Assembly: GCA_024639455.1 (NCBI GenBank)
Contig: JAHEIH010000006.1
Span: forward strand, 1-44,410
DNA length: 44,410 bases
Reading direction: 5' to 3'
From: Cellvibrionales bacterium
GTDB lineage: Bacteria > Pseudomonadota > Gammaproteobacteria > Pseudomonadales > JAHEIH01
Part shown: positions 9,362-44,283 of the stretch, piece by piece
How positions within the stretch are numbered: position 1 is the stretch's first letter
Layout: each line of letters opens with the position of its first letter
Made by a program: the position numbers and the translations under genes
Notes under the pieces: model-generated
Told to the model about the DNA's origin: nothing
Seen by the model: the letters and a program-made list of their open reading frames with translations, nothing else
Database searches by the model: none

Positions 9362-9847
9362 GTGCATAGCGATGAGTTCTTCATGCGGCGAGCTATTCAG
9401 CTTGCTGCAAACGCTGAGCGTGAAAACGAAGTGCCCGTGGGGGCACTTGTTGTTTCTGAAGCCGGCGAAATTATTGGTGAGGGTTGGAATAGTCCCATCT
9501 CGCTGCATGACCCTAGTGCTCATGCTGAAATGGTGGCGCTTCGAAACGCCGCACAATATATTCAAAATTATCGTCTTGTAAACTGTACCCTCTTCGTTAC
9601 CTTAGAGCCCTGCACAATGTGTTGCGGCGCGTTGATTCACGCTCGGATCAAGCGTGTCGTTTATGGCGCAAAAGAACCTAAGGCGGGTGCTGTGCACAGT
9701 CAATTGCAGCTTTTAGAATTGTCTCACACTAACCACATCGTCGATGTTACCGCAGGCGTATGTGAATCTGAATGCTCGTCCATGTTGAGTGTTTTTTTTA
9801 AACGTCGCCGAGAAGAAAAACGCGCCTTGAGAAGTCAGCAATTATGA
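9362..9847 (+). CDS. tadA: tRNA-specific adenosine-34 deaminase
   Basis: This 161-residue enzyme converts the wobble adenosine of tRNA-Arg(ACG) to inosine. The zinc deaminase signature is complete: HAE at residues 54-56 (catalytic E56) and PCTMC at 83-87 (C84, C87). EVPVGALVV and ARIKRVVYGAKEPKAGA are also typical of TadA rather than of a free-base deaminase. The GTG start at 9362 is chosen because the residues before the next ATG (DEFFMRRAI) match the conserved YWMRxA region of TadA. The gene begins three bases after the H-NS-like gene, whose 3' end supplies an AAGG. Its stop overlaps the next start in an ATGA, so the three genes look like one transcription unit. tadA close to mltF and purL is also the E. 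coli arrangement. Confidence 0.95.
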   Translation: MHSDEFFMRRAIQLAANAERENEVPVGALVVSEAGEIIGEGWNSPISLHDPSAHAEMVALRNAAQYIQNYRLVNCTLFVTLEPCTMCCGALIHARIKRVVYGAKEPKAGAVHSQLQLLELSHTNHIVDVTAGVCESECSSMLSVFFKRRREEKRALRSQQL

Positions 9848-27122: not shown

Positions 27123-30056
27123 ATGAGTCAAAGCTTTAAATTCAAGCCCGCTCTGATGTCACTGGCCGTTGCTGGCGCTGTTGCTAGTTCAGCGGTTGCA
27201 GTAGCACAAGAGCAGGTTATGGAAGAAGTCACTGTAACTGGTATCCGTGCGTCATTGATGCGCGCTCAAGCCGTTAAGATGGACAGCTCGTCTATCGTTG
27301 AAGCGATTTCAGCGGAAGACATTGGTAAGCTGCCCGATTCATCAATCGCTGAATCGCTAGCACGTTTGCCAGGTTTGGCGGGTGAGCGTAGCGGTGGTCG
27401 TACAGCTGGTATCTCAGTTCGTGGTTTCAAAGAAGACTTCGTTGGTACTACTCTGAATGGCCGTGAGCTGATCGGTATCGGTGACAACCGTGGTGTTGAA
27501 TACGATCTGTACCCTTCAGAAATCATGACTGGTGCTGTGATTTACAAGTCTGCTGACGCGGGTCTGATGACTCAAGGTCTGGGTGGTACTGTTGATCTGC
27601 GCACTGCGCGTCCCTTGGAAGTCGACGAGACTTTGACTCTGAACTACACCTACGAGCAAACTGGTCGTGCGTCAGATAACCCTGAGTTTGACGACAAAGG
27701 TCAGCGCTACGCGTTCTCTGTAGTAGAAAAATTTGCCGACGACACCATGGGTATCGCTCTGGCATACGCCGACACTGAGTCACCAACCAACCAACGCAAA
27801 TACGGCGTTTGGGGTTACGGTGCGAACGATGATGGCCAGTTCCTGCCCTTCGGTTTGGACACCCAATCTATTTCTAAAGAGCTGCGTCGCGAGACCATCT
27901 CTGCAATCTTCCAATACCAGCCAAGCGACGATCTCGACATCGTTGTTGACTACTTGGATATCGACTTTGCTGATGCCGGTATTATCCGCGGCTTCATCGA
28001 GCCCTTCTCTGCTGACGCTGCGTCACTGACTGGCTCTGGTTACAATGTTTCTGGTACTCAAATTGGTGCAAACCCTGTACTGCGTACTGACCCAGAAAAC
28101 ATCGTTGGTAGCTTGGAAACTTTCGGTGCAAACATCAAGTTCGCTATCAATGACAGCTGGACGGCAACCGTTGACATTGCTTCTTCAGAGTCTACCAAGC
28201 GCTATGAGCGCGCCGAGTCATACGCTGGCTTGGGCCGTAACGGTTCTTTGACCGCTGCGCAATTGGGTTCTCGCGAATTCCAAATGTCTGAAAACGGCAT
28301 TAACTTTAGCAGCATTTCTGGCATGGACTTCAGCGACTTCAACGCCATCAAACTGACGGGTCCCCAGCAGTGGGGCGGTGGTATGGCCTCTGTGGGTGAA
28401 TACTTCTCATCAAACGTTTTGCGTACTGATGGTAACCCTTACAGCTTCTTGGAAGCGCAAGACGGTTTCTGGAACTACGCTGACTTCGGTGAAACCCTTG
28501 ACACCATGAAGTTGCAATTCGACGGTGATATCGATGCTGGTATTTTCAACCACGTAAGCGTTGGCGTTAACTACAGCGACCGCTCTAAGTTTAAAGAGAA
28601 CCACGGTGACTTCGCGACTGCGACCTCATTCCCCTTCGGTGACGGTAATGGTGCAGTTGACAGCTTGATTCCTGAGTCTTACCGCTACGGTTTGGCTGAC
28701 CTGACTTGGGCTGGTCTGGGTTACGTAGTAGCTTATGACGGTTTTGCGCCTTATAAAGATGGCACTTACTTCCTGACGCCTGCAGACTTCTTGGAGCCCG
28801 ATCGTCTGGGTGATTCGTTCATCATTGACGAAGAAGTAACAACCTACTTCATTAAAGGTGACTACGAGACGACTGTTTCAGGTTTGAACGTATTCGGTAA
28901 TGTTGGTGTTCAAGTGGTTAGCACTGATCAATCTTCAAACGGTTACTTGGGCATCGTAAACGAGCGCAAGAACACCTGTTTGGTAGAAGGTTCTACCCCT
29001 TGGGCGCCTGTGTTGGACGAAGGTTGCCGCATCGATGGTGGCGCGAGCTACACCAACGTATTGCCTAGCTTCAACTTGAACGTTGAGGTGGGTGAAGGCG
29101 AGTTTGTTCGTGTTGCCGCTTCTAAGTCTATGAGCCGTGCACGTCTTGACTACATGAAGGCTTCTGGTTTTGTTAAGTTTGACCAAAACATTGACCTGAT
29201 CGAGCGTTACACTGTTGACGGTTTGGATGCTGGTTCACCATGGTCTAAGTTCCAAGGTAACCCTGAATTGCGTCCTCTGCAGGCCGTTAACTTCGACCTG
29301 TCTTACGAAAAATACTTCGCTGAAGACGGATACGTTGCCGCGTCTTACTTCTACAAAGACATCACCAACTGGACAGATGAAGGCGGTCAAGTCATTGACT
29401 TCGCTAACGACAGCACCAATGGTGGCGCAAACTACTTCATTCCTGGTTTCCACGACCGTACTGTGACTTCTCCTGATGGCCAAACCATCAATGGTCGCTT
29501 CTACGCGAATGGTTCATACATTGATCCTTTCAACAACGGTGTATCTGAAGGTTTCTTCTCAACTTACACTGACGGTTTGACTGGTTCTTTGGACGGTATG
29601 GAGTTCACTGCTAACGTTCCATTGCGCATGGTTTCTGACGCGCTCGATGGTTTCGGTGTAGCAGGTTCTGCAACCTTCATCGACAGCGAATTGTCTAACG
29701 GTTCTAGTATCCCAGGTCAGTCTGACGAGGTTTACTCGTTAACGGCTTATTATGAAATGGGTGGCTTTGAGTTCCGTGTTGCAGGCACCAAGCGTGGTAA
29801 GTACAGCACTTACGAGCGTGGTGGTTCTAACAAGATCTCAAACGCAACGCGTGATGCGGTAACTATTATCGACGCTCAAATCAGCTACGACTTCATGGAG
29901 TCTGGCATCGAAGGTCTGGAAGGTCTGCGTGTTTCACTGCAGGGTACTAACCTGACTGACGAAGGTGATATCAGCATCGATGGCAACGGTATTGTTACTA
30001 CTAAGCGTGACTTCGGTCCCGTTTACATGCTGAACGTGAACTACTCTCTGTACTAG
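27123..30056 (+). CDS. TonB-dependent receptor, Xanthomonas/Caulobacter type, probably for oligosaccharides
   Basis: This is a 977-residue outer-membrane active transporter. The signal peptide covers about residues 1-28 (VAGAVASSAVAVA), and a TonB-box-like stretch EEVTVTG lies at 34-40. The plug domain follows (IVEAISAEDIGKLPDSSIAE, then GISVRGFKEDFVGTTLNGRE), and the 22-strand barrel ends in an aromatic residue (NVNYSLY). The start of the plug and the phrase ASLMRAQAVKMDSSSIVEAI are hallmarks of the TIGR01782-type receptors, many of which take up carbohydrates such as maltodextrins. LacI-type operators upstream, shared with glgP, support an alpha-glucan substrate. Codon choice (GGT, CGT, AAC, CTG, ATC favoured) differs from the neighbours and suggests strong expression. 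A terminator follows. The exact ligand is inferred. Confidence 0.9.
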   Translation: MSQSFKFKPALMSLAVAGAVASSAVAVAQEQVMEEVTVTGIRASLMRAQAVKMDSSSIVEAISAEDIGKLPDSSIAESLARLPGLAGERSGGRTAGISVRGFKEDFVGTTLNGRELIGIGDNRGVEYDLYPSEIMTGAVIYKSADAGLMTQGLGGTVDLRTARPLEVDETLTLNYTYEQTGRASDNPEFDDKGQRYAFSVVEKFADDTMGIALAYADTESPTNQRKYGVWGYGANDDGQFLPFGLDTQSISKELRRETISAIFQYQPSDDLDIVVDYLDIDFADAGIIRGFIEPFSADAASLTGSGYNVSGTQIGANPVLRTDPENIVGSLETFGANIKFAINDSWTATVDIASSESTKRYERAESYAGLGRNGSLTAAQLGSREFQMSENGINFSSISGMDFSDFNAIKLTGPQQWGGGMASVGEYFSSNVLRTDGNPYSFLEAQDGFWNYADFGETLDTMKLQFDGDIDAGIFNHVSVGVNYSDRSKFKENHGDFATATSFPFGDGNGAVDSLIPESYRYGLADLTWAGLGYVVAYDGFAPYKDGTYFLTPADFLEPDRLGDSFIIDEEVTTYFIKGDYETTVSGLNVFGNVGVQVVSTDQSSNGYLGIVNERKNTCLVEGSTPWAPVLDEGCRIDGGASYTNVLPSFNLNVEVGEGEFVRVAASKSMSRARLDYMKASGFVKFDQNIDLIERYTVDGLDAGSPWSKFQGNPELRPLQAVNFDLSYEKYFAEDGYVAASYFYKDITNWTDEGGQVIDFANDSTNGGANYFIPGFHDRTVTSPDGQTINGRFYANGSYIDPFNNGVSEGFFSTYTDGLTGSLDGMEFTANVPLRMVSDALDGFGVAGSATFIDSELSNGSSIPGQSDEVYSLTAYYEMGGFEFRVAGTKRGKYSTYERGGSNKISNATRDAVTIIDAQISYDFMESGIEGLEGLRVSLQGTNLTDEGDISIDGNGIVTTKRDFGPVYMLNVNYSLY

Positions 30057-30070
30057 TAGAGAGTCTCCGG

Positions 30071-30099
30071 AAAAAACCCGCTTCGGCGGGTTTTTTTTT
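30071..30099 (+). terminator. Terminator of the TonB receptor gene
   Basis: The stem CCCGC/GCGGG with a TTCG tetraloop is flanked by an A-run and nine T. It is one of the strongest hairpins in the window. It suggests that the halogenase-like genes need read-through or their own promoter, which is not obvious. Confidence 0.9.
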
Positions 30100-30177
30100 G
30101 CAAACCTTTGACCTATATCCCTTTTTTTTGCAGCTCTAGTTAGTTACATTGGAGCATCTGAAGTTGTTGAGGTTGTC

Positions 30178-31659
30178 ATGGCGATAAAAAAATTGGTTAT
30201 TGCAGGTGGTGGTACCGCGGGTTGGATGACCGCGGCATTGGCATCAAAATTACTGGCGCCCAATGTCACGATAGAGTTGGTAGAATCCGAGCAAATCGGT
30301 ATTGTTGGCGTCGGAGAAGCGACGATCCCCCCCATCCAAACGTTTAACCAAGTGATGGGCCTGGATGAGCGTGAGTTCTTGCGCGCGACTAATGGCACAA
30401 TCAAATTGGCCATTAAATTTGAAAACTGGCGTGTCCAGGGTGAGTCCTATTTCCACACCTTTGGTGCACCGGGTGCGCAAATGGGTTTTTGTAACTTTAA
30501 CCATTTTTGGCAGCGTGCTAAGGCCCTGGGGGATAAACACTCGATTTGGGATTACGACATTAACTACCTGTTTTGCGAGCAAAACGGTTTTAACCAGATC
30601 AATACTCAAAATCCTCTCTACGAGGTGCCCTATGCCTACCATTTTGACTCTGCGTTGTATGGTCAATACATGCGAAAATTGGCGGAACAGGCGGGTGTAG
30701 TTCGTACCGAAGGTATCATCGATCACGTCGCCCAAGATCCAGCGACAGGTTATATCACCTCTTTGACCCTTCAATCCGGGCAGATCATAGAAGGTGACCT
30801 TTTTGTCGATTGTACCGGTATACGCAAACTGTTGATTCAAAAGACCCTTGGCGTCGCTTACGAGGATTGGAGCGAGTTGCTGCCGGCGAACAGTGCTGTC
30901 GCCGTGCAAACCGATCGTTTAGAGACCTTAGTGCCTTATACCCGCAGTATTGCCCATGCTAAGGGTTGGCAGTGGCAGATTCCGCTGACTCATCGCAATG
31001 GTAATGGCATTGTCTATAGTGATAAGTACATGTCTGACGATGAGGCGCGCGACACGCTGCTGAAAAATTTGCCCGCCAAAACGGTCAACGAGCCCCGTCA
31101 GATTAAGTTTCAAACAGGCCGCACGACAGAGCAATGGTGTAAAAACGTCATTGCGATTGGCCTATCGAGCGGCTTTCTCGAGCCCTTGGAGTCGACCAGT
31201 ATTCATCTTATTCAGTCGGCGGTGGTGCGTTTGATGAAGCTGTTCCCGCAGCAAGGCATTGACCAAGTGGCGGTGGAGGCCTACAACCGGGAATCTCAAA
31301 CTGAATACGAGACAATTCGTGATTTCATTATTCTTCACTACTACGTCAATGAACGCGATGATTCGGAATTTTGGCGCGACATGCGGCATCTCGATATCCC
31401 CGATCGCTTGCGCCATAAAATTGATCTATTTACCCAGACGGGTGTTATTTTCAATGAAGAGCACGATATCTTCCGCGATTCTTCTTGGTTGCAAGTGATG
31501 ATGGGGCAGGGCTTACAGGCGCGTGATTATCACCCCGCGGCCAATGCTATGCCGGATCAGGCGTTCTTACAGCGCATGGCGCAGTTGCGCCAAGTGAAGC
31601 GTGAGCCGCTCAGCCAATGCATGCCGCACGAGGCGTTTTTACAGAAGTTTCTAGGGTAG
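30178..31659 (+). CDS. Flavin-dependent halogenase family protein (tryptophan halogenase-like), copy 1
   Basis: This 493-residue protein belongs to the FAD-dependent halogenase family. It has an FAD-binding GGGTAGWM at 10-17, the lysine that carries the reactive halogen species (K76 in TIKLAIKF), the halogenase signature W264-x-W266-x-I-P (GWQWQIPL), and the E338-S339 pair in FLEPLESTSIHL. All active-site residues known from PrnA-type enzymes are therefore present, so halogenation by a partner flavin reductase is chemically plausible. Genes of this group next to TonB receptors, in Xanthomonas and marine bacteria, include bromination-preferring enzymes; native substrates are unknown. No biosynthetic (NRPS, PKS, tryptophan) genes are near. 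The second copy follows four bases later. Family sure, reaction not. Confidence 0.88.
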   Translation: MAIKKLVIAGGGTAGWMTAALASKLLAPNVTIELVESEQIGIVGVGEATIPPIQTFNQVMGLDEREFLRATNGTIKLAIKFENWRVQGESYFHTFGAPGAQMGFCNFNHFWQRAKALGDKHSIWDYDINYLFCEQNGFNQINTQNPLYEVPYAYHFDSALYGQYMRKLAEQAGVVRTEGIIDHVAQDPATGYITSLTLQSGQIIEGDLFVDCTGIRKLLIQKTLGVAYEDWSELLPANSAVAVQTDRLETLVPYTRSIAHAKGWQWQIPLTHRNGNGIVYSDKYMSDDEARDTLLKNLPAKTVNEPRQIKFQTGRTTEQWCKNVIAIGLSSGFLEPLESTSIHLIQSAVVRLMKLFPQQGIDQVAVEAYNRESQTEYETIRDFIILHYYVNERDDSEFWRDMRHLDIPDRLRHKIDLFTQTGVIFNEEHDIFRDSSWLQVMMGQGLQARDYHPAANAMPDQAFLQRMAQLRQVKREPLSQCMPHEAFLQKFLG

Positions 31660-31663
31660 CGCC

Positions 31664-33148
31664 ATGCAGCAGCGATTTATTGTCCTTGGCGGTGGTACCG
31701 CTGGTTGGATGGCCGCCAACCTTCTGGCTAAGCAGTGTGGCGATAGAGTATCGGTGCAGGTCATCGAGTCACCGGACATCGGCATTATTGGCGTGGGTGA
31801 GGGCTCCACGCCCAGTCTCAAGCGTTTTTTTGAAATCCTTGATATCCCCGAGTCGGCTTGGATGCCCGCCTGCCAGGCGACCTACAAGGTCAGTATTCGC
31901 TTTGAAGGTTGGAGCCCTGAGTCGGGTCGCGCTGCCTATAGTCACCCATTTATTTCGCAGCCCGATACCTTTACCGAACGTGCTTTCCACGTCAATTGTC
32001 GCACTCGCCGTATGGGTTTGGACGTCAATACCCAGCCTGAAGACTTTCTGCTCAACGGTCTACTGGCAAAGCAGGGTAAGGCGGCGATTACTCCCGAACA
32101 CTTTCCCTTTCGCATGGAGTATGGTTATCACTTTAATTCGGGGTTGTTGGGCGAATTTCTAGCAGAGCACGCCAAACAACTGGGTGTCGTTCGCACCCAG
32201 GCCCGTGTTGTCAAGGTTGAGCAGGATGACAGCGGTGATATCGCCGCCCTTATCGACGAACAGGGCATCCGCTATGAGGCGGACTTTTTTATCGATTGCA
32301 CCGGTTTTTCTGCCATGCTGATCGAGAAAACGCTAAATGTAGGATTTGACTCCTTTGCCAGCAATCTGTTCAACGACTCTGCCGTAGTATTACCCTCAGC
32401 CCGTGCTGAGGCGCCTCCAGTGGAGACCTTATCCAAGGCCTTATCTAGCGGCTGGATGTGGCGTATTCCCCTGACTGAGCGGTTTGGCAATGGCTACGTT
32501 TACAGCAGTCGTTATATCAGCGCCGAACAGGCTGAGGCTGAATTGCGTCGCGAGCTTGGGATGGAAAACGATCCTACTGAGGCGCGCCATGTGTCGATGC
32601 GTGTCGGTCAGCGTCAGCGTCACTGGGCCAATAACTGTCTTGCACTTGGTTTGTCGCAGGGCTTTATCGAGCCCTTGGAAGCAACGGCTCTTCATCTCGT
32701 GCAAGTTGCCATTCTCGAATTTATTCATCTTTACGAGGAGGGCGGTTTTGGGCCTGCTCGCCGTGATCAGTACAACGGTTTTGTGCGAGAGCGTTTTGAG
32801 CGCGTGCGGGATTACATTGTGGCGCATTACAAACTAAATACCCGTGGTGATAGCCAGTATTGGGTCGATAACCGCAACAATGACAAATTGTCGCCGACAT
32901 TGGATAAATTATTGATGGCGTGGTTTAAGCGCGAGGATGTTGGGGCTGAAATCCAACGTCTAGGAATAGGCGATCATTTCAATAACACCTCATGGCATTG
33001 TTTGCTAGCAGGTTACTCGGCGTTTCCACCTTTGGCGGGAAATCAGCCAGGAAGAGGGGATCTTTATATCGAGCAGGACGTGGAGAAATTTCTCTCTGGT
33101 TGCAGTCTAAATTTTCCCTTGCAGAGGGATGTTTTGGCGCGCTTTTAG
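31664..33148 (+). CDS. Flavin-dependent halogenase family protein (tryptophan halogenase-like), copy 2
   Basis: The 494-residue paralogue of the preceding protein is aligned along its whole length but clearly diverged. It has GGGTAGWM at 9-16, the active-site lysine K75 (ATYKVSIRF), and W264-x-W266-x-I-P (GWMWRIPL). At the glutamate-serine site it has E339-A340 (GFIEPLEATALHL), so the Ser beside the catalytic Glu is replaced by Ala. The middle part (about 85-150), which shapes the substrate pocket, differs most from copy 1. The two may act on different substrates, or this one may have changed function. It starts four bases after copy 1, so the pair forms one transcription unit, ending in the structured intergenic region at 33149-33542. 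Confidence 0.86.
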   Translation: MQQRFIVLGGGTAGWMAANLLAKQCGDRVSVQVIESPDIGIIGVGEGSTPSLKRFFEILDIPESAWMPACQATYKVSIRFEGWSPESGRAAYSHPFISQPDTFTERAFHVNCRTRRMGLDVNTQPEDFLLNGLLAKQGKAAITPEHFPFRMEYGYHFNSGLLGEFLAEHAKQLGVVRTQARVVKVEQDDSGDIAALIDEQGIRYEADFFIDCTGFSAMLIEKTLNVGFDSFASNLFNDSAVVLPSARAEAPPVETLSKALSSGWMWRIPLTERFGNGYVYSSRYISAEQAEAELRRELGMENDPTEARHVSMRVGQRQRHWANNCLALGLSQGFIEPLEATALHLVQVAILEFIHLYEEGGFGPARRDQYNGFVRERFERVRDYIVAHYKLNTRGDSQYWVDNRNNDKLSPTLDKLLMAWFKREDVGAEIQRLGIGDHFNNTSWHCLLAGYSAFPPLAGNQPGRGDLYIEQDVEKFLSGCSLNFPLQRDVLARF

Positions 33149-33542
33149 TCCGTGTAATCGACGCCTGATAATACTAAAGTATTAGTGGGTCTTTAGGCTA
33201 AAGTCTAATGGTGTTGTCGTTGTCCACAGAAGCTGTGGATAACTTGTTTGATAACTTTCTTGCCCAGCCTTCAAATCCGCATTAAATAACGGCTCATTAT
33301 GATTGGTTATTTTTTGATCAATTAAAAATATCATAAAAATCAGTATTTTACGAGAGGTATGTAAGGCTTTTTGTTGGGGAGTGTCGTTAAGTTATTAAGT
33401 TTTGATCGTGCACTGCATTTGTGCATAACTTTTTTGTTAATAGTTTGAAAGCCGCTGAACGCTGACTTTTGTGAAGAAGTTCACATTTTTCATGGGCTTA
33501 GCCCGAAGCGCGCTGAGCGTGCCTCAGGCCGTACCAGAGTGA
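33149..33542. other. AT-rich convergent intergenic region with successive inverted repeats and DnaA-box-like sites
   Basis: No gene was found in these 394 bases, although both flanking genes end here. Three inverted repeats occur in a row: TAATACTaaAGTATTA (33169-33184), CTTTAGgCTAAAG (33191-33203), and a 10-base stem formed by TTGTCCACAG and CTGTGGATAA (33220-33242). The last contains a perfect DnaA box on the minus strand (TTATCCACA, 33234-33242) and a near box on the plus strand (33220-33228). A further near box, TTATGCACA, lies at 33420-33428 on the minus strand. Between them is a very AT-rich stretch (33290-33345) with a GATC at 33316. No U-rich terminator is visible for either side. Confidence 0.5.
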
Positions 33543-35744
33543 TTATTGGCGGGGTCTAAGAGCAGCAACAGCCGCCATTAATTCATTGCCTTGTTGATCG
33601 TTAAAAAAGCCATCGATATCACAGGGTAATTTGCGTTTCCAGTTGGGGTGTTCCTCTGTGGTACCAGGAATGTTTACCTGTTCGACCAACTGCAAAATAT
33701 CCTCGGCGGGAATCATGTGCATCGCGCATGGGGTCAGTGCCAGATATTGTTGTGCCGCCACGGCTAAAATGTGTTCGGCGTGATCATGGTGATTAGCCGG
33801 TGCATCCTGCTCACCCATCAGATCCATATCGATCAACGCGGCGCGCAGATATTCGCGATCAGGGACCCTGCCGTTAGCATCGGCTTCAGCCATATCTTGG
33901 CTTGGGTAGAGGCTCAGTTCGCGGCGCCATGCCAAGTCGCGCCCTGTCCACCATCCAGCGACTGTGTGCAGGTCGTGGGTCGAGCCAGTAGCCATCGCCT
34001 GCTCTGGGTAGGCTTCAGGGCGCATAAATAGGCCGTTCTCCCAGCGTTCAAAAAATAGCACTTTATATGATAGCAAGCCGTGAGCTGACATAATGTCGCC
34101 AAACCCTTCAGGAACGGTGCCTAAGTCTTCGCCCACCACAATACAGTTATTGCGATGGCTCTCAAGCGCGATGACACGCAGAATGTCGGCTAATGGGAAG
34201 CTGATGTAGACACCTTCATCGGCTTTTTTACCTGGCGCAACCCAGTATTGACGCATAAAACCTAAAATGTGGTCGATACGCAGTGCACCGGCGTACTGCA
34301 TGCTTGAGCGCAAGGCTTTGACCAGTGGGCCAAAGCCGGCCTCGCGCAGCGCAACGGGGTTAAGGGGCGTGAGCCCCCAGTCTTGTCCTAGAATGTTCAT
34401 TGCATCGGGTGGTGCGCCCACAGCGGCGCCAGCGAGATAATTAGCTTGGTCAGCCCATACTTCGGCGCCATTGCCATCACAACCCACCGCGAGGTCTAAA
34501 TACAAACCGATGGGCATACCGTGCTCGAGGGCGGTAGCTTGGACGGCAGACAGTTGCTCGTGAGCCAGCCATTGCAGCCAAGCGAAGTATTGAATGCGAT
34601 CTGCTTCAGCTGCTTTAAAGGCAGCTACTTCCGCGCTATGGGGGTCGCGGTATTGTTCGGGCCAGAACGTCCAACCATAAGCGTTGTCATCGCGCTCGCG
34701 GAAGTATTCGTAAAGTGCGTCATAGCAGGCCAGTGAGGCCAGATCGTCTCCCTGTGTTTCACAGAAGGTTGCAAAGCGTTGGGCGCTGTCGCTAGCATTG
34801 GCAATATCGCTGGCTTGGAAGTCCGCAAACAAAGTGCGCAGTACTTTGTATTTCAAGTAGCCAACGGTGCCATGGTCGATGAAGTCAGCGTCGCGCACAC
34901 GAGCTAATAACATCTGAAATTCGCCGTCATTCACTATGGCTTGGCACGGATCGCTATTGGCGTAACCTGGCACTGCCGTCACATCGATGTACATCGTATT
35001 CAGAAAGCTGCGGCTGGTAGGCGAGTAGGGGCTGCGGTGCGAAGGGTTACCCGGGAACAAGGGGTGAAGCGGGTTTAATCCAATCGAACCGGCGCCACGA
35101 GACGCCGCGCGCACGACAAATTCGCGTAGGTCACTGAAATCGCCCATGCCCCAGTTGGTTGCTGATTTGAGCGAGTACACTTGCACCGCGATGCCCCATG
35201 TCTTGGGGGTAATCTCTGCTGGATTGACACAGGTCGGCGGCGCCACAATCACGTGGCATAGCGCGGTTTGATCCCCTGCGGTCACGGTCAGTTGGTGGTA
35301 ACCTTCGGCGATACGTGGCAGCTCCCATTGATAGCGTTTAAAATCTTGTCCATCTAAGCAGGCGGTGTCGACGCAAGGAAGGATGTCAGCTAGCACGTCG
35401 TCTTGACTGTGATGTGTGCCATCTTCGCACACCAAGCGATAGCTAAAACGATCTACCCATACTGGTAAGTTGATATCAATGTTGTACTGGGTTTGTTCGG
35501 CAGCGATGATTTCGCAGCTGCTGACGACACAGCGCCATTGGCTTTGAGCCAGTGTATTGGCCTGCGAGGCGAGGGCCTCTTCTGAGGACGTGTCGTACCC
35601 CATGGCACTGACGAGTGAGGCAAGTGCATCTTCTTGCGGGGTGACGTTATGACCAAAGCAGTTGACATAGCTGCTGTGGAAGCCGATTTCAGTGGCGAGG
35701 CGATGAAGTTGACTCATGGAATTATGCGATCTCTGTTGGCGCAT
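33543..35744 (-). CDS. malQ: 4-alpha-glucanotransferase (amylomaltase)
   Basis: This 733-residue GH77 enzyme transfers alpha-1,4-glucan segments between malto-oligosaccharides, releasing glucose and making longer chains for phosphorylase. Family motifs are GIAVQVYSLKSATNWGMGDF, SPYSPTSRSFLN, the catalytic Asp in GALRIDHILGFMRQ, the catalytic Glu in VVGEDLGTVPEGFG, and STHDLHTVAGWW. An N-terminal region of about 150 residues before the barrel is as in E. coli MalQ. The start at 35744 has AAGG upstream and overlaps glgX by 23 bases; ATG 35717 (MSQLHRLATEIGF), four bases after the glgX stop, is a good alternative. It is the last gene of glgP-glgB-glgX-malQ. Confidence 0.93.
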   Translation of the reverse strand: MRQQRSHNSMSQLHRLATEIGFHSSYVNCFGHNVTPQEDALASLVSAMGYDTSSEEALASQANTLAQSQWRCVVSSCEIIAAEQTQYNIDINLPVWVDRFSYRLVCEDGTHHSQDDVLADILPCVDTACLDGQDFKRYQWELPRIAEGYHQLTVTAGDQTALCHVIVAPPTCVNPAEITPKTWGIAVQVYSLKSATNWGMGDFSDLREFVVRAASRGAGSIGLNPLHPLFPGNPSHRSPYSPTSRSFLNTMYIDVTAVPGYANSDPCQAIVNDGEFQMLLARVRDADFIDHGTVGYLKYKVLRTLFADFQASDIANASDSAQRFATFCETQGDDLASLACYDALYEYFRERDDNAYGWTFWPEQYRDPHSAEVAAFKAAEADRIQYFAWLQWLAHEQLSAVQATALEHGMPIGLYLDLAVGCDGNGAEVWADQANYLAGAAVGAPPDAMNILGQDWGLTPLNPVALREAGFGPLVKALRSSMQYAGALRIDHILGFMRQYWVAPGKKADEGVYISFPLADILRVIALESHRNNCIVVGEDLGTVPEGFGDIMSAHGLLSYKVLFFERWENGLFMRPEAYPEQAMATGSTHDLHTVAGWWTGRDLAWRRELSLYPSQDMAEADANGRVPDREYLRAALIDMDLMGEQDAPANHHDHAEHILAVAAQQYLALTPCAMHMIPAEDILQLVEQVNIPGTTEEHPNWKRKLPCDIDGFFNDQQGNELMAAVAALRPRQ

Positions 35745-37866
35745 TGGCCTTGTGTATATAGCTCAACACGGCAAAGCTCTTAGCTTGCAGTGTTAGGTTG
35801 GGGTCTGTCGCGACGTGCAGGCTATTGCTGTGACTAACTGCGGTATCGAGAATTTTTTGCCAAACGCCATTCAATTCAGGCAGTACAAATGCCTTGCTGT
35901 CGTTGGAGGCGTTAAAGATGAATAGCAGTGCGTCGTCGATGCTACAGCTGTGGCGGAAAGAGCGAACTTCGTCTTTCTCACCGGTGGCGGCCAACAACAT
36001 ACCAAAGCATTTTAAATCGGGTTGCTGCCAGTTTTCCTGGCTCATGTTGTCGCCGTCGGCATTGAGCCAGCTGATATCGGGTAAGCCAGTCACTGTTGAT
36101 GTGTTGATCCCATGTTGATAGCGTGGGCGATTCAGCAGTGGATGCAGGCGGCGCAATTTGATGAGCTCAGTGGTAAAGGCTCTGAGTTCTTCGTTGCCGC
36201 GGTCGATACGATCCCAATTCAGCCAAGAGATGTCGTTGTCTTGGCAGTAGGCGTTGTTGTTGCCTGACTGGCTGTTGCCAAACTCGTCGCCGGCGAGCAG
36301 CATGGGAATGCCCTGCGATAACAGTAGTGACGCCAAAAGGTTTTTTTGTTGACGCATGCGTAAAGCATTGATGGCGGTATTTTTGGTCGGGCCTTCGATG
36401 CCGTGGTTATAGCTGAAGTTTGCCCCGTGGCCATCGCGATTGTCCTCGCCATTGGCGATATTGTGGCGCTCGTTGTAGCACACCAGATCGCGCATGGTGA
36501 ATCCATCGTGGGCGGTAATGAAATTGACGCTGGTATAGGCGGTGCGCCCGGGGCGTTCGAAAATATCGCTAGATCCGTGCATGCGGCGTGCAAATTCAGG
36601 CGCCATGGCGTCATCGGTGAGCCAAAAGCGGCGAACGGTATCACGGAACTTGTCGTTCCACTCGTGCCAACCGTTGGGGAAGTTACCCACTTGGTAGCCG
36701 TTGTAACCAATGTCCCAGGGCTCGGCAAACATTTTAACTTGCGACAATACAGGGTCTTGGGTCACAGCCGAGAAAAAGTGGTTTTCAGGAGAAAAATAGT
36801 GCTGGTGGTTACGCCCTAGGGTGGTTGCTAGATCAAAGCGGAAGCCGTCAACGCCAACTTTTTGCACCAGGTAGCGCAAGCTGTCCATCACGAACTGCAA
36901 TACGCGTGGATGACTGAGATTGACACTGTTGCCGCAACCGGTGTGATTGGCATAGAAGCGCTTATCGCCTTCCATTAGGTGGTAATAACTAAGGTTGTCT
37001 AATCCTTTGAAGGAGTAGGTCGGTCCTAGGTGATTACCCTCGGCGGTGTGGTTGTATACCACGTCGAGAATAACCTCAATGCCGGCGCCGTGCATCGCTA
37101 ATACCACTTGGCGTAGTTCGTCGAAGGCATTCTTTAACGCGTATCGAGGCTGCAGGGCAAAGAAGTGGTAATTGTTATAACCCCAATAGTTAGGGCGGCC
37201 TTTTTCGGCCAAAAAAGGTTCTGCGCAAGAGGCGTGCACTGGCAGTAGTTCAATGCTTGTAACACCCAGCTCTTTCAGGTACTTGATGCTCTCTGGGTCG
37301 GTTAGCGCGCTGTAGGTGCCGCGAATGGGACTGGGCAGTCGCGGGTTGATTTTGCTGAAACCGGCAACATGCATCTCGTACACAATGGTATCACTGAGCG
37401 GGATGTCTGGGCGGTCTTCCGTTGCGTCGGGACGCTCGTCAATTACGATGCACTTAGGCATATGCGGCGCACTGTCAGACGTGTCGATATGCAGGTCGCA
37501 ATCTACTTGTCCGGTTTGGCAGTACGCCAGTTGGCTTGGGTGGTAGTTTAGCGCGCCAGACAGTTCCTTGGCGTAGGGGTCTAGTAGTAACTTGTGTGGA
37601 TTAAAGAGTAGCCCTTCGTGGGGCGAGTAGGCCCCGTGAGCGCGCAAGCCGTAAAGCGTGCCGGGTGAAACCCCGGGGATATAGCCGCACCACACATCGT
37701 TCTCAAACACCGGTAAACGAAGTCGTTGAATTTCCTCGCAGCCACTCGCGTCAAACAGGCACACCTCAATGGCTACCGCTGAAGTAGAGAACACTGCAAA
37801 GTTGGTCCCCTCGCCGTCAAAGGTTGCGCCGAGAGGGTAGTGTTTACCTGGCAATACGTTGTACAT
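35722..37866 (-). CDS. glgX: Glycogen debranching enzyme (isoamylase type)
   Basis: This 714-residue GH13 enzyme cleaves alpha-1,6 branches of phosphorylase-limit dextrins. A CBM48 domain (about 8-110, GATFDGEGTNFAVFSTSA) precedes the catalytic barrel with DVVYNHTAEGN, the nucleophile in GVDGFRFDLATTLGR, the acid/base in VKMFAEPWDIGYNG, and FITAHDGFTMRDLV. The stretch GRPNYWGYNNYHFFALQPRY is typical of GlgX/TreX. It is longer than E. coli GlgX (657), mainly in the C-terminal part. Its ATG overlaps the glgB stop by one base (TAATG). Confidence 0.94.
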   Translation of the reverse strand: MYNVLPGKHYPLGATFDGEGTNFAVFSTSAVAIEVCLFDASGCEEIQRLRLPVFENDVWCGYIPGVSPGTLYGLRAHGAYSPHEGLLFNPHKLLLDPYAKELSGALNYHPSQLAYCQTGQVDCDLHIDTSDSAPHMPKCIVIDERPDATEDRPDIPLSDTIVYEMHVAGFSKINPRLPSPIRGTYSALTDPESIKYLKELGVTSIELLPVHASCAEPFLAEKGRPNYWGYNNYHFFALQPRYALKNAFDELRQVVLAMHGAGIEVILDVVYNHTAEGNHLGPTYSFKGLDNLSYYHLMEGDKRFYANHTGCGNSVNLSHPRVLQFVMDSLRYLVQKVGVDGFRFDLATTLGRNHQHYFSPENHFFSAVTQDPVLSQVKMFAEPWDIGYNGYQVGNFPNGWHEWNDKFRDTVRRFWLTDDAMAPEFARRMHGSSDIFERPGRTAYTSVNFITAHDGFTMRDLVCYNERHNIANGEDNRDGHGANFSYNHGIEGPTKNTAINALRMRQQKNLLASLLLSQGIPMLLAGDEFGNSQSGNNNAYCQDNDISWLNWDRIDRGNEELRAFTTELIKLRRLHPLLNRPRYQHGINTSTVTGLPDISWLNADGDNMSQENWQQPDLKCFGMLLAATGEKDEVRSFRHSCSIDDALLFIFNASNDSKAFVLPELNGVWQKILDTAVSHSNSLHVATDPNLTLQAKSFAVLSYIHKANAPTEIA

Positions 37867-40040
37867 TAGCTCAATTCAAACACGAGGGTTGAAAGGGGCG
37901 GTACAGTAATCGCAATGGAGTTTTCACGGTGGTTTGCCGCGATAGATTCGCTAGTAGCGCCGTTAAAGTTGCCCTGGTTGCTGCCGCCATAGATGGCCGC
38001 ATCCGAGTTCAAAATCTCTCGGTAATGACCCGCTTCTGGTACGCCAAGACGGAAGTTTTCATGGGTTGCCGGGGTAAAGTTCACGACCACTAGCACGGGT
38101 TTGGTGCCTTCTTCGCCTTTGCGAACATAGCTGTAGACCGACTGGCCAGCATTTTCGTGGTCGATCCACTCAAAGCCAGTGTTATCACAGTCACGCTGAT
38201 GAAGTGCGGGTATGTCGCGGTAGATACGGTTCAAATCGCGAATCAGTGCTTGGACACCGCTGTGCCAATCGATATTCAACAGTCCCCAGTCCAGCTCAGA
38301 TTCGAAGTTCCATTCTTTGCCTTGGGCGAATTCGCCGCCCATAAACAACAGTTTCTTACCCGGGTGGGTCCACATGAAGCCGTAGTAGGCGCGTAGGTTG
38401 GCAAATTGTTGCCACGTGTCACCCGGCATGCGTGACAAAATCGAGCCCTTACCGTGTACCACTTCGTCGTGGCTTAGAGGCAAGATAAAGTTTTCGTCAA
38501 ACGCATACACTAGGCCAAAACTGATCTCGTTGTGGTGGTGTGAGCGGTGAATGGGGTCGCGCTTCATGTATTCCAGTGTGTCGTTCATCCAGCCCATATT
38601 CCACTTGTAGCCGAAGCCAAGGCCGCCCATGTCGGTGGGTTTTGAAACTCCTGGCCAAGCTGTGGATTCTTCAGCTACCGAAAAAGCGCCGGGGAAATCG
38701 GCGTACAACTCTTCGTTGAAACCGCGTAAAAAGTCTACCGCTTCGAGGTTTTCATGGCCGCCAAACTTGTTGGGGATCCACTCGCCTTCTTTGCGGCTGT
38801 AGTTGCGATACAGCATTGAGGCGACGGCATCGACACGAATACCGTCGACATGGTAGCGGTCGAGCCACACGCTGGCTGAAGCGCGCAGAAAGTTGGCGAC
38901 TTCGGTGCGGCCAAAGTTGTAGATAAAGGTATTCCAGTCGGGGTGATAGCCCTCGCGCGGATCCATGTGCTCGTAAAGGCAGGTGCCATCAAAGCGCGCC
39001 AAGCCGTGGGCATCAGAGGGGAAGTGACCCGGTACCCAGTCGATCAACAGGCCAAGGTCTTCGGCGTGGCAACGATCGACAAAGTATTTGAAATCGTCGG
39101 CATTACCAAAACGCGCCGTCGGAGCAAACATACCCACTGGTTGGTAGCCCCAGGAACCGTCAAAGGGGTGCTCGCTGATGGGCATGAGTTGGATATGGGT
39201 AAATCCCATAGATTTCACATAGGGGATCAGTTGCTCAGCGATGTCACGGTAGTTGAGGAATTCTCCGTGGTCGCCGCGGCGCCAAGAACCCAAATGAACT
39301 TCGTAAATGGATACCGGGGCATTGCGCGCTGAGCGCAATTCTCGGTGGCTCATCCAGTTGCCATCTTGCCAGTGGAAGGGTGCCTCAGCGTCGATCACGG
39401 AGGCGGTATCGGGGCGCATTTCAGCCTGCGAACCAATAGGGTCAGCCTTCAGTGGCTGCAAATTGCCCGCGCTGTCCTTCATTTCATACTTGTATTTGGT
39501 GCGGGCGGGGATGCCAGGGATGAAAATATCCCAAAAGCCACTATTACCAAGGCGGCGCATCGAATGACGACGGCCGTCCCAATCGTTGAAATCACCGACT
39601 ACCGAGACGCGTGAGGCGTTCGGTGCCCAAACACTAAACGCCACACCGGCGATGCCATCAATAACGCGCTGGTGGGCACCTAGCACGTCATAGAGCTTGC
39701 GATGGGTGCCTTCATTCAATAAGTGGATGTCGACATCACCCAGTACTTGGGGGAATCGATAGGGATCCTCACGTTCGATAACTGTGCCAGGATAAATCAC
39801 TTTGAAGCGGTAATTAAACGGCTTTTTGCGACGGGTTTTTAAGACAAAAAAGCCTGTGGAACCGGCCTGGTCCATCGCCACTTCATCACCATCAATGTCC
39901 ACCAAAACTTCAATTGCGCCTGGTTGGAAGGTGCGTACCACGTACACATCGGATTTTCCTTCACAATGTAATCCCAAAAAGCCAAACGGGTTGGGGTGGC
40001 TTGCATCCAAGATCTGTTGGATTTTAGGTGTGACTTTCAT
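37866..40040 (-). CDS. glgB: 1,4-alpha-glucan branching enzyme
   Basis: This 724-residue GH13 enzyme makes alpha-1,6 branches in glycogen. The N-terminal GlgB-specific module ([20 protein letters not shown]) is followed by CBM48 ([20 protein letters not shown]) and the barrel with nucleophile [19 protein letters not shown], acid/base [13 protein letters not shown] and [14 protein letters not shown]. The length is close to E. coli GlgB (728). It lies 15 bases after glgP and overlaps glgX. Its presence in an otherwise catabolic operon without glgA or glgC is notable. Confidence 0.96.
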
Positions 40041-40055
40041 GGCGATAACCTCAGC

Positions 40056-42515
40056 TTACTTCGATGGCGACAGATGCCAAATGTTGGCAACGTAGTCTTC
40101 GATCGAACGGTCGGAATTAAATTTACCCATTTTGGCCGTGTTGAGAATAGCCATCTTAGCCCAGCGCTTACTGTCTTTGTAAGCTTCGTCGAGGCGCTTG
40201 TGGGCCTCTTTGTAGCTCTCGAAGTCAGCCAGTACTTTGTAGGGGTCACCACCTAACAGATTGTGTTTGATCGACGCCAGTTCGCCTGGGTGACCTGGGG
40301 TGAAGAAATCACCTTCCAGCCAATCTAGTATGGCGCGGATGTCGGCGTTGCTATCGTAGAAGGCGCGTGGGTTATAGCCGTTGGCATCGAGTGCCTTCAC
40401 TTCGTCGACGGTGTTGCCGAAGATGAAGATGTTGTCATCGCCAACTTCTTCGGCGATTTCAATGTTGGCGCCATCTAAGGTGCCAATAGTCACGGCGCCG
40501 TTAAGGGCCAGTTTCATGTTGCCTGTGCCCGACGCTTCTTTACCGGCGGTTGAAATTTGCTCCGAAACATCGGCGGCGGGGATGATTTTCTCCGCCAGAC
40601 TGACGCGGTAGTTGGGCAGAAAAACAACCTTCAGCTTGCCACCGATACGTTCGTCGTTGTTGACACGCTCGCCCACTTTGTTAATGGCATAAATGATGTC
40701 TTTAGCGAAGTGGTAGCTAGGTGCTGCTTTAGCGCCAAAGATGAAGACGCGTGGTTGCATGTCATCGTTGGGGTTGTTCAGCAAGCGGCGGTACAGCGAC
40801 AAAATGTTCAACAGGTTCAAATGCTGGCGCTTGTATTCGTGCAGACGTTTGATCTGCACATCGAAGATGGCGTCAGGGCTGACCTCGATATTTAATTCTG
40901 CGCGGATAAAGTCGGCTAGGCGCACTTTATTATCGCGCTTGATCTGCATGAATTTTTTCTGGAAGGCTGCCTTGTCGGCGTGTTGAGCAACGTCTTGTAA
41001 GAGATCGAGGTCGCGCGCCCAATCACCTTTGACCACGCTGTCGAGTAGCGCAGACAGGTCGGGGTTGCTAGCTTTCAGCCAGCGGCGAGGGGTAATGCCG
41101 TTGGTAACGTTGGTTAGCTTGCCGGGCCACAGGGCGTCAAACTCTGGGAAGAGGTCGCTCTTAACCAGGTCTGAGTGGATTTGTGCCACGCCATTGACTT
41201 TGTGCGAGGCCAATACACACAGGTGAGCCATGCGCACCGAGCGTTCGCCATCTTCGCGAATCAACGACAATTTAGCGCGCATGGCGATGTCGCCAGGCCA
41301 TTTTTTGTCGACTTCATTATTTAGGAACTCATCATTGATGCGATAGAGGATTTCCAAATGGCGTGGTACAACGCGCTCAAACATGCTAACCGCCCAAGTT
41401 TCCAGAGCCTCGGGCAACAGCGTGTGGTTGGTGTAAGAGAAGACTTTTTGGCACAGCGCCCAGGCGTCGTCCCATGCCACCGCGTGATCGTCGATCAGCG
41501 TGCGCATCATTTCCAATACTGAAATGGTGGGGTGAGTGTCGTTCAACTGGATAGCGGCCTTATCGGGGAAGGCGGCCCAATCGTTATGGTGTTCTTTGTA
41601 GCGACGGATGATGTCTTTGATCGAGCAAGCGCAGAAGAAATACTGCTGTAGGAAGCGCAGTTCTTTGCCCTGTGGTGTCTCATCCGCTGGGTAGAGGACT
41701 TTTGAAACGGTTTCTGCCAATACGCGTGCACGGTGTGCTTCGTGGTAGTCACCGGCGGTGAAGCGGTCCCAGTCAAAGTGGTCTTTTACACGGCACTCCC
41801 ACAGGCGCAAGATGTTGGCGGTGGCGCTTTTGTAACCTACGATCGGTACGTCCCATGGCACGCCCACCAAACTGGAGGCGGCTTTCCATACTCGAACTTC
41901 TTCACCTTTGTTATTGGTAGTGGTTTCTACGTGGCCGTAAACCCCTACTTCCTGAGTGAATTGTGGGCGACAAATTTCCCATGGGTTGCCGAATTCACGC
42001 CACACATCGGGGCGTTCAATCTGGCGGCAGTTATCGATTTCTTGTTTGAACAGGCCGTGTTCATAGTGAATGCCGTAGCCGATAGCAGGGTAGTCTAGTG
42101 TGGCCAATGAATCGATGAAGCAGGCCGCCAGTCGACCTAAACCACCGTTGCCCAGCGCCATATCGGGGGCGACTTCACACAAGTCAGCTAGGTTGTGGCC
42201 GAGTTCGTTGACCGCGCTATCAACCACGTCATACAAGTCTAGGTTGGTTAGGTTGTTGGCCAACAAACGGCCCATCAGGTATTCCAGTGAGAGATAATAA
42301 ACGCGGCGTACATCCTGCTCGCGGTGGCGAGCTTGGGTCTTGGTAAGCATGGGGAAGATGACGTCGTTGACAGCCATGCTAACCGCTTCCCACCAAGCGT
42401 GTTTTGTATTCGATTTGCCATGGTCTGCCAAATCACCCAAGGTGTAAGTCAGGTGATGTTGGATACGATCTTTGATCTGCGTGGCAACAGGGTTCTGTTT
42501 GTTTTTAGTCGGCAT
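40056..42515 (-). CDS. glgP: Glycogen/maltodextrin phosphorylase
   Basis: This 819-residue GT35 PLP enzyme releases glucose-1-phosphate from alpha-1,4-glucan ends. Motifs are YYLSLEYLMGRLLANNL, ALGNGGLGRLAACFIDSLAT, and the PLP-lysine region EASGTGNMKLALNGAVTIGT (about residue 665). The length equals that of E. coli GlgP and MalP, and sequence alone does not separate them; with GlgB and GlgX beside it, glycogen is likely, and malto-oligosaccharide use is probable too. It is the first gene of the operon glgP-glgB-glgX-malQ. Upstream are a candidate promoter (42579-42608) and a LacI-type operator (42652-42665). Confidence 0.95.
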   Translation of the reverse strand: MPTKNKQNPVATQIKDRIQHHLTYTLGDLADHGKSNTKHAWWEAVSMAVNDVIFPMLTKTQARHREQDVRRVYYLSLEYLMGRLLANNLTNLDLYDVVDSAVNELGHNLADLCEVAPDMALGNGGLGRLAACFIDSLATLDYPAIGYGIHYEHGLFKQEIDNCRQIERPDVWREFGNPWEICRPQFTQEVGVYGHVETTTNNKGEEVRVWKAASSLVGVPWDVPIVGYKSATANILRLWECRVKDHFDWDRFTAGDYHEAHRARVLAETVSKVLYPADETPQGKELRFLQQYFFCACSIKDIIRRYKEHHNDWAAFPDKAAIQLNDTHPTISVLEMMRTLIDDHAVAWDDAWALCQKVFSYTNHTLLPEALETWAVSMFERVVPRHLEILYRINDEFLNNEVDKKWPGDIAMRAKLSLIREDGERSVRMAHLCVLASHKVNGVAQIHSDLVKSDLFPEFDALWPGKLTNVTNGITPRRWLKASNPDLSALLDSVVKGDWARDLDLLQDVAQHADKAAFQKKFMQIKRDNKVRLADFIRAELNIEVSPDAIFDVQIKRLHEYKRQHLNLLNILSLYRRLLNNPNDDMQPRVFIFGAKAAPSYHFAKDIIYAINKVGERVNNDERIGGKLKVVFLPNYRVSLAEKIIPAADVSEQISTAGKEASGTGNMKLALNGAVTIGTLDGANIEIAEEVGDDNIFIFGNTVDEVKALDANGYNPRAFYDSNADIRAILDWLEGDFFTPGHPGELASIKHNLLGGDPYKVLADFESYKEAHKRLDEAYKDSKRWAKMAILNTAKMGKFNSDRSIEDYVANIWHLSPSK

Positions 42516-42646: not shown

Positions 42647-42674
42647 TACTTTGCATACGAATGCATGCAAAGTA
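42647..42674. promoter_or_regulatory. LacI-family operator upstream of glgP
   Basis: TGCATACGAATGCA (42652-42665) is a CG-centred palindrome of the same form as O2 before the TonB receptor (TGCAAACGGTTGCA). It is nested in a larger perfect inverted repeat with 10-base arms (TACTTTGCAT at 42647-42656, ATGCAAAGTA at 42665-42674). A weaker CG-centred candidate, with core AAGCGGTT, is at 42681-42694. A LacI-family gene begins at the right edge of the window. Confidence 0.65.
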
Positions 42675-43317: not shown

Positions 43318-44283
43318 ATGTATCCACTTGTCGTCGCCGATATTGGCGGAACTAATGCACGTTTCGCGCTGGTGCGCGGTCTGAATGCCAAGGGAAGCTT
43401 TGACCTTGAACAGCAATTGACCTTCGCCACCGCCGAGTACCCAACCATGCAGTCTTGCTTGGCAGCCTACATCGATCAATTACAAGATGCCGAGCCAAAG
43501 CATGTTTGTCTGGCGATTGCCGGCCCCGTGATGGGCGATAATATTGCCATGACCAACTTGTCATGGGCATGGTCGACCAGTGCGGTTAAATCTGAGTTGG
43601 GTTTGACACGCCTCGCGGTGATTAACGACTTTACGGCTCAGGCTTGCAGTTTGCCGTTATTGGGTCGTGAAGATTTGGTTGAAGTAAAAGCCGGTGTCGA
43701 AGTGGCTGGAGCAACCAAAGCAGTATTAGGTCCAGGTACTGGTTTAGGGGCAGCGGGATTGTTGCCTGTAGGTGATAAGTGGTATCCCATTTCGGGTGAA
43801 GGCGGCCACCGCAACTTGGCGGCGGATAACGATGAGGAATACGCCATCGTGAAACATTTGAACGCTGAGTGGAGTCACGTATCCTTGGAAACGTTGCTTT
43901 GTGGCTCTGGTTTGTTGCGTTTGCACAAGACCCTTGCCCATGTGCGAGGTGTCGCACAAAGTTGTGAATCGCCAAGCGATATTACCCATGCGGCAGCGGC
44001 TGGTAATGACGCGCTTGCGCTCGATACTGTCAATATGTTCTGTGGCATGCTGGGTTCGGCGTCTGCCGATTTAGCCTTGACCATGGGTGCTCGTGGTGGC
44101 TTATATTTGGGTGGAGGCATTCTGCCTCGCTTCGGTCAAATATTGCACGACAGTCCTTTTGTTGCCCGTTTTAAGGCCAAGGGCATCATGTCGCATTTTG
44201 TGTCGGAAATCCCGGTAAATTTGATTGTTCATCCACACCCTGCGCTACTGGGCGCGGTTGGTTGGATGCTGTCTAACGCCTAG
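43318..44283 (+). CDS. glk: Glucokinase
   Basis: This 321-residue enzyme, the length of E. coli Glk, phosphorylates free glucose with ATP. Motifs are VVADIGGTNARFALVRG (phosphate binding), VINDFTAQACSLPLLG, LGPGTGLGAAGLL, ISGEGGHRNLAADNDEE (glucose binding) and GGLYLGGGILPRF. It handles the glucose released by MalQ and GlgX and feeds glycolysis. It is divergent from mgsA. Its 3' end overlaps the LacI-family gene on the other strand by 11 bases. Confidence 0.96.
   Translation: MYPLVVADIGGTNARFALVRGLNAKGSFDLEQQLTFATAEYPTMQSCLAAYIDQLQDAEPKHVCLAIAGPVMGDNIAMTNLSWAWSTSAVKSELGLTRLAVINDFTAQACSLPLLGREDLVEVKAGVEVAGATKAVLGPGTGLGAAGLLPVGDKWYPISGEGGHRNLAADNDEEYAIVKHLNAEWSHVSLETLLCGSGLLRLHKTLAHVRGVAQSCESPSDITHAAAAGNDALALDTVNMFCGMLGSASADLALTMGARGGLYLGGGILPRFGQILHDSPFVARFKAKGIMSHFVSEIPVNLIVHPHPALLGAVGWMLSNA

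Follow-up and report, generated by a model that had tools for sequence, protein, structure and literature searches.

Two halogenase-family genes beside a predicted alpha-glucan TonB-dependent receptor in a Cellvibrionales bacterium

Flavin-dependent halogenases of variant A and sugar loci equipped with TonB-dependent receptors are each known, and the joining of the two may be new. For halogenases of the BrvH and Xcc4156 kind, structures and in vitro activity have been reported, and their native substrates were reported as unknown (PMC7336383). Here we describe a locus in the genome of a Cellvibrionales bacterium (GCA_024639455.1; 2.88 Mb, 99.5% complete), in which both kinds of genes stand side by side: the window, by which we mean the whole stretch of 44,410 nucleotides that was analysed, is the beginning of contig JAHEIH010000006.1 (C15 in our numbering of contigs; collected loci are numbered with L) and encodes, in this order, a TonB-dependent receptor (TBDR) and two proteins of the halogenase family, HalA and HalB, whose genes are separated by 4 bp (Table 1). 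No paper on halogenases in sugar TonB loci was found in the open literature searched, and subscription journals may mention the association; the papers compared, each represented by part of its text, were PMC1790865, PMC5945002, PMC7336383, PMC8269204, PMC11337851, PMC5943477, PMC3826837 and PMC13055268. The presence of halogenase-like genes in the N-acetylglucosamine (nix) loci of Xanthomonas was not borne out: PMC3826837 names nixA-nixD as receptor genes, and the word 'halogenase' is absent from the compared parts of both PMC3826837 and PMC13055268.

We propose, with a probability of roughly 0.65 for the reading as a whole, that HalA and HalB are variant A halogenases dependent on flavin adenine dinucleotide (FAD) and act as accessory enzymes of an alpha-glucan uptake operon; gene order, protein families, conserved catalytic residues, synteny and the predicted regulon were obtained by computation. 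Both proteins match the Pfam family Trp_halogenase (PF04820) over their full length (595.6 bits for HalA and 424.8 bits for HalB, cut-off 21), and this match as well as GxGxxG, the catalytic Lys and Glu and WxWxIP place them in the variant A family. A halogenase alignment with 149 rows (146 of them different) shows no variation in GxGxxG, Lys76, Trp264/Trp266, Ile268 and Glu338 (numbered as in HalA), and 133 rows retain the Pro of WxWxIP; the residues concerned are K76, E338 and W264-W266-I268-P269 in HalA, and K75, E339 and W264-W266-I268-P269 in HalB. The initial annotation, which had recognised two halogenase-family open reading frames (ORFs) with the active-site Lys and complete WxWxIP beside a TonB receptor, was right in coordinates and motifs, the PF04820 and TIGR01782 matches lying above their cut-offs. 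Its statement that secondary-metabolite, tryptophan and flavin reductase genes are absent nearby agrees with our scan, which at the thresholds used revealed none among 28 window ORFs (9 compared with Pfam and NCBIfam, 9 with NCBIfam only and 10 with Pfam only, the shortest ORFs being excluded; the ORF at 9844-11529 had no NCBIfam match at E 1e-20). It had further called both proteins diverged, which suits HalB better than HalA, the latter being 45-48% identical over its full length to the solved proteins 6y1w and 9luq.

By its matches HalA is grouped with the BrvH/Xcc4156 halogenases: the closest solved proteins by sequence are 9luq (542 bits), Xcc4156 (6y1w, 483 bits) and BrvH (6frl, 407 bits), to which it is 39-48% identical, and its AlphaFold model (mean predicted local distance difference test, pLDDT, 90.6) reaches template modelling (TM) scores of 0.94-0.97 to the same three, with 0.96 for Xcc4156. 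HalB, which shares 33% identity with HalA, has its best sequence match among solved structures in 5hy5 (297 bits); the 50 structural rows listed for its model (mean pLDDT 92.8) are tryptophan halogenases and Xcc4156, with query TM scores of 0.81-0.88 and 26-33% identity, and HalB appears to be about equally distant from all known halogenases. The motif Fx.Px.Sx.G, proposed for recognition of the family (Gkotsi 2019, as quoted in PMC7336383), is complete in neither protein; since it is only a proposal with known exceptions, we do not regard the departure as excluding family membership. HalA (FLEPLESTS) keeps F, P and S and carries Ser in place of Gly, and Ser at this position is also described for BrvH and two Xanthomonas halogenases (PMC7336383). 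Halogenating activity is to be weighed separately for the two proteins: HalA probably possesses it, and for HalB the odds seem evenly balanced.

The gene order is conserved among relatives. From a profile search of genome contigs with the HalB alignment, the best 80 of 580 relatives were taken, among which 15 (L108-L120, L139, L163) are at least 55% identical to HalB. TBDR, HalA and HalB follow each other in this order on one strand in 12 of these 15 loci (HalA of L116 was shown by tblastn), and relatives of pullulanase, GH13, GH31 or GH97 lie in the same stretch in 12 of the 15, with none in L110, L118 and L139; neighbours carry the label of the reference protein that phmmer matched best, and most of these references were checked with Pfam. 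Solitary HalB relatives are found in L110 and L139, and L115, cut by the end of its contig, starts with HalB, behind which lie a second receptor and pullulanase. The hosts include Colwellia, Alteromonas, Paraglaciecola, Ningiella, Cellvibrio and Novosphingobium, and the order TBDR-HalA-HalB is present in L088 and L089 as well. Orthologues of TBDR accompany pullulanase, GH13, GH31 and GH97, the receptor of L119 being 60.8% identical to TBDR, which is a predicted alpha-glucan receptor. A receptor within 5 kb was recognised, among the best 80 of 580, for 12 of 13 genes with at least 58% identity to HalB, 4 of 8 at 50-57%, 9 of 26 at 45-49%, 13 of 21 at 40-44% and 9 of 12 below 40%, all of which are lower bounds, as the receptor of L124 was missed. 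Mainly unrelated neighbours, which the initial annotation had named as a finding that would speak against the association, are thus not what close HalB relatives show, and in part what the distant HalB-like genes show. Of 56 genomes of the order, 8 encode HalA homologues (E <= 1e-30), the window genome among them. Loci L111, L112, L113 and L120 (Alteromonas/Ningiella/Paraglaciecola) contain a second receptor type and pullulanase 3' of HalB, which are absent there in the window. In L093 and L094, HalB-like genes with 45% identity stand beside two hydantoinase-like genes (identified by eye), with no receptor recognised, another setting for this enzyme family. HalA relatives are also encoded in 80 viral-contig loci (L242-L321), the best with 47% identity.

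The second line of evidence is a predicted regulon. The motif TTGCAACCGGTTGCAA occurs, at up to two mismatches, at seven sites in the genome, compared with one for the reversed control; two of the seven precede TBDR, and each of the five others (5/5) precedes carbohydrate genes, namely those of two MFS carriers with partial GPH-sucrose similarity, a GH13 protein, pgi-edd-zwf (zwf being identified from sequence by eye) and ThuA. As TTGCAACCGGTTGCAA was chosen after the sites of L117 and of the window had been seen, independent evidence is provided by the five others and not by the two window sites. The ThuA gene (C22:740-2592, L214), which has the receptor's operator motif upstream, is followed by a GFO/IDH/MocA dehydrogenase gene, which suggests keto-sugar chemistry within the same regulon. 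At the Cellvibrio locus L117, where the motif reads TTACAACCGGTTGCAA, a LacI gene lies directly 5' of TBDR-HalA-HalB; variants of TTACAACCGGTTGCAA are present in L114, L116 and the window, and L119 shows none. This L117 LacI is 54.7% identical to a LacI encoded on contig C22 versus 38.3% to LacI_C15, which adjoins the window. LacI_C15 was accordingly rejected as regulator of the receptor and is kept as a candidate for the glgP site only, and the TBDR operators would most likely be regulated by the C22 LacI, whose gene is followed by a ROK kinase gene. Sites with three mismatches to TTGCAACCGGTTGCAA, a level equal to background, are found 120 bp upstream of the gene for the C22 LacI and 113 bp upstream of GH97-GH31.

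In Alteromonadales-type loci, TGCATACGTATGCA at up to two mismatches was found at 24 of the 34 receptors of alpha-glucan type and at none of the 9 of laminarin or other type (300 bp upstream and the first 60 bp were searched, one match lying just inside the called start of L111; receptor types were assigned by best match to reference receptors), and 30 of the 53 matches in 712,713 bp fall within 14,179 bp around receptor starts. The Alteromonadales operator (TGAATACGTATGCA-like) was found in Alteromonas, Paraglaciecola and Colwellia relatives. Glaciecola L128 and L135 carry a TGCATACGTATGCA-type site of their own between HalB and a sugar MFS gene, with LacI and GH31 nearby, and no receptor was found in the stretch examined. 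In the window genome, TGCATACGTATGCA is present at two places at up to one mismatch, one of which is the glgP site, and at eight (control: three) at up to two mismatches. Our first operator pattern, TGCAANCGNTTGCA, proved too narrow: it occurs at one place in the genome, and at one mismatch it gave three matches in 673,125 bp of loci, two of them the window's own, versus 0-5 for eight control palindromes. The signal is carried only by the two lineage-specific motif types, TTGCAACCGGTTGCAA/TTACAACCGGTTGCAA and TGCATACGTATGCA. On these grounds TBDR, HalA and HalB very probably belong to an alpha-glucan (maltodextrin/starch) regulon. The link to glycan uptake through the operators, which had been put forward as a new idea, is supported by the conserved synteny and the coherence of the predicted regulon, and has to be narrowed in two respects, as the operator at glgP differs from that of the receptor and the association is not specific for alpha-glucan, a laminarin-type locus being present as well.

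Several observations weigh against this proposal. Between TBDR and HalA lies a strong terminator-like hairpin (Table 1), found by script and not listed by the terminator tool scan, for which reason the receptor and the halogenases need not be cotranscribed and the word 'operon' for the three genes is weakened; strict hairpins occur in 5 of 31 receptor-halogenase gaps elsewhere, and a promoter scan of 29900-33560 gave no sigma-70-like site for the halogenases. The hairpin probably would keep HalA and HalB below the level of the receptor. Four of the five TTGCAACCGGTTGCAA sites outside the window are flanked by a divergent gene pair, in which the sugar gene faces gmk, a DNA methyltransferase repair gene, hexR or an HlyD gene and is only one of two possible targets, and at three mismatches the motif shows no enrichment (26 sites vs 23 in the control). 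The glycogen operon carries on its glgP side a TGCATACGTATGCA-type operator and TBDR one of TTGCAACCGGTTGCAA type; two related LacI regulators are therefore probably involved, and a common operator of the glycogen operon and the receptor is not indicated by the sequences. In HalB (FIEPLEATA), S and G of Fx.Px.Sx.G are both replaced by Ala, which lowers its claim to halogenate. Many of the distant HalB-like genes are without a recognised receptor by the lower-bound counts given above, and of 24 TIGR01782 receptors sampled (the matches come from 8 of 185 genomes) only 7 lie within 1.5 kb of a halogenase, so that a receptor of this type can do without one.

The genome contains five halogenase genes: HalA and HalB, a laminarin-type pair and one beside a GH97 gene (a PF04820 trace match at C9:30265, a fragment of 21.4 bits, was left out of this count). 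The laminarin-type locus on contig C13 (L018:3-12240) has the order TBDR-Hal-SapC-Cupin_8-Hal together with GH3 and GH16, and the association of halogenases with receptors therefore is not limited to alpha-glucan. The fifth gene adjoins, in addition to GH97, a match to a receptor barrel that runs off the end of the stretch examined. The four accessory genes of the laminarin-type locus recur in the same order in L052, L053, L054, L100, L104, L106, L174 and L175. Near the end of contig C22 (C22:227778-228461, L011), a TIGR01782 receptor fragment with two internal stops stands beside a LacI-like match and possibly represents a decayed locus.

Across the collected halogenases, the residue following the catalytic Glu is Ser in HalA-like and Ala in HalB-like rows, with one exception per group; it could be read in 160 of 169 halogenase ORFs (69 Ser, 91 Ala). 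At least two halogenases are present in 51 loci, and 44 have exactly two, both readable: 38 combine Ser with Ala, four are Ala-Ala and two Ser-Ser. Since 100 of the loci (L088-L107, L108-L187) were collected with HalB as query, an Ala-type gene is favoured or present from the outset, and information comes from the Ser-type partner alone; related loci were counted separately. On a quick tree the label changes three times versus 46 in shuffles, well-supported branches forcing only two changes; the HalB clade and the laminarin Ala-type clade may be one lineage or two, and the mixed pair may have a single ancient origin or repeated ones. The unlike pair of Ser-type (EST) and Ala-type (EAT/EAS) enzymes might even be a general, perhaps ancient accessory module of glycan TonB receptors in Proteobacteria, acting as one functional unit on a common substrate independent of the glycan and switched on by the regulator of the respective sugar, an extension we consider rather unlikely as it stands.

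The same pairing can be read differently, with HalB and its Ala-type relatives as FAD monooxygenases or oxidases that act on the product of HalA, or supply or remove an oxidant. Ala in place of both the Ser after the catalytic Glu and the halide-site Gly, the unlike partners in 38 of 44 readable two-gene loci and the strong clustering of the label on the tree speak for such a role, but Lys, Glu and WxW are invariant in the Ala-type rows too, and the halide site, described as two backbone NH groups (PMC7336383), needs no side chain; we hold this alternative to be unlikely, and it is compatible with the regulon part of our proposal, the odds of the two overlapping. Processing or detoxification of aromatics released or taken up together with algal or plant glucans would suit the several marine genera among the hosts and the solved relatives of HalA, which are described as having open active sites without long lids (PMC7336383). 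As none of the motif-bearing genes examined is one for aromatic catabolism, we judge it quite improbable.

The monooxygenase QhpG acts on a protein, and the two flavoproteins could likewise act on the uptake system itself, altering aromatic residues in one of its proteins such as the receptor. The association indeed tracks the receptor rather than one glycan, a Cupin_8/JmjC-like gene lies between the halogenases of laminarin-type loci, and HalB has a distant NCBIfam match to QhpG (36.5 bits, cut-off 240). A conserved Trp target was nevertheless sought in vain: in 71 receptors associated with halogenases no Trp column reaches 75% conservation. Tyr141 is enriched (0.85 vs 0.17), though in comparison with just six unassociated receptors, and no receptor was found near the Glaciecola HalB. 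Modification of a protein is in our opinion very improbable. A chance neighbourhood or the remnant of a secondary-metabolite cluster, for which one could adduce that neither a biosynthetic partner nor an adjacent flavin reductase was found among the scanned window ORFs, is already contradicted by the gene order, which 12 of the 15 close relatives, from several families, have kept, and by the operators common to TBDR and sugar genes, and can hardly be entertained.

According to our proposal, in which we infer the binding LacI, the choice of halide, the substrate and the role, the presence of alpha-glucan would change the occupancy of the tandem operators by a LacI-family regulator, most likely that of C22, and TBDR, HalA and HalB would be made together with the sugar carriers, GH13, pgi-edd-zwf and possibly GH97-GH31, the hairpin letting only part of the transcription pass to HalA and HalB. 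FADH2 would be supplied in the cytoplasm by one of the three PF01613 flavin reductase-like genes of the genome, all of which lie on contigs other than that of the window. HalA, and probably HalB, would then use FADH2, O2 and halide to attach halogen to a small, electron-rich aromatic molecule that is probably indole-like; bromide is our guess for a marine cell, the preference being derived from relatives (PMC5945002, PMC7336383). Because the module is found with alpha-glucan and with laminarin-type receptors, its aromatic substrate probably does not belong to the glycan and would rather be a common aromatic metabolite. That the product is a signal or a growth-inhibiting compound made while feeding is a tentative suggestion. 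If confirmed, membership of the halogenases in sugar regulons would supply a candidate inducing condition for enzymes of the BrvH/Xcc4156 kind, which would make the question of their native substrates testable by comparing induced with uninduced cells and by deletion mutants. It would also advise caution in reading marine Trp_halogenase transcripts as antibiotic synthesis, a reading suggested in one metatranscriptome paper.

The wider setting of the locus comprises an isc iron-sulphur cluster 5' of TBDR, and downstream malQ-glgX-glgB-glgP followed by mgsA on the opposite strand, and glk on the plus strand (Table 1).

Table 1. Features of the window, in order of position.
Feature	Position	Strand	Basis or remark
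LacI-type operator 1, TTACAACCGTTTGCAA	27004..27019		2 mismatches to TTGCAACCGGTTGCAA
LacI-type operator 2, ATGCAAACGGTTGCAA	27025..27040		TTGCAACCGGTTGCAA-type genome site; two helical turns (21 bp) away from operator 1
TBDR, TIGR01782 (Xanthomonas/Caulobacter) type, 977 aa	27123..30056	+	NCBIfam 452 bits, cut-off 310
Terminator-like hairpin AAAAAACCCGC-TTCG-GCGGGTTTTTT and T run, between TBDR and HalA	30071..30099	+	sequence and script
HalA, flavin-dependent halogenase (predicted), BrvH/Xcc4156 kind, 493 aa	30178..31659	+	signature FLEPLESTS, Ser-type
HalB, diverged paralogue of flavin-dependent halogenase family, 494 aa	31664..33148	+	signature FIEPLEATA, Ala-type
malQ-glgX-glgB-glgP operon, maltodextrin/glycogen metabolism, convergent	33543..42515	-	Pfam/NCBIfam matches
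LacI-type site TGCATACGAATGCA 5' of glgP	42652..42665		1 mismatch to TGCATACGTATGCA
Glucokinase gene glk	43318..44283	+	Pfam/NCBIfam matches

Among the described systems, the CUT loci (Blanvillain 2007, PMC1790865; with the maltose receptor XCC2469/MalA) are closest with regard to the surroundings: a receptor stands with alpha-glucan genes, a carrier and a regulator as here, the likeness lying in locus content. All the components of such a locus, that is receptor, carbohydrate enzymes, inner-membrane carrier and regulator, were found, adjacent to each other in the relatives and, in the window genome, spread over contigs and joined by the operator motif. The term 'halogenase' is absent from the main text of the 2007 paper, whereas the unit described above includes a halogenase pair. 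With regard to the enzymes, HalA resembles the indole-type variant A halogenases Xcc4156, BrvH and 9luq (the latter, from Pseudoalteromonas sp. L11, compared from its database entry alone) in full-length fold and identity, and BrvH also in the Ser at the halide-site Gly position, where Xcc4156 has Asn. A second halogenase gene adjoins that of BrvH, too (PMC5945002), as HalB adjoins HalA; the BrvH text (PMC5945002) contains neither 'TonB' nor 'receptor' and the Xcc4156 text (PMC7336383) no 'TonB', and a sugar regulon is described in the compared parts of neither. HalB is similar to the tryptophan halogenases PrnA, PyrH, SttH and RebH in fold and in Lys, Glu and WxWxIP, but differs from them in its identity of 26-33%, in lacking the Ser and Gly of Fx.Px.Sx.G, and in its neighbourhood, where the scanned window ORFs revealed no tryptophan or antibiotic pathway.

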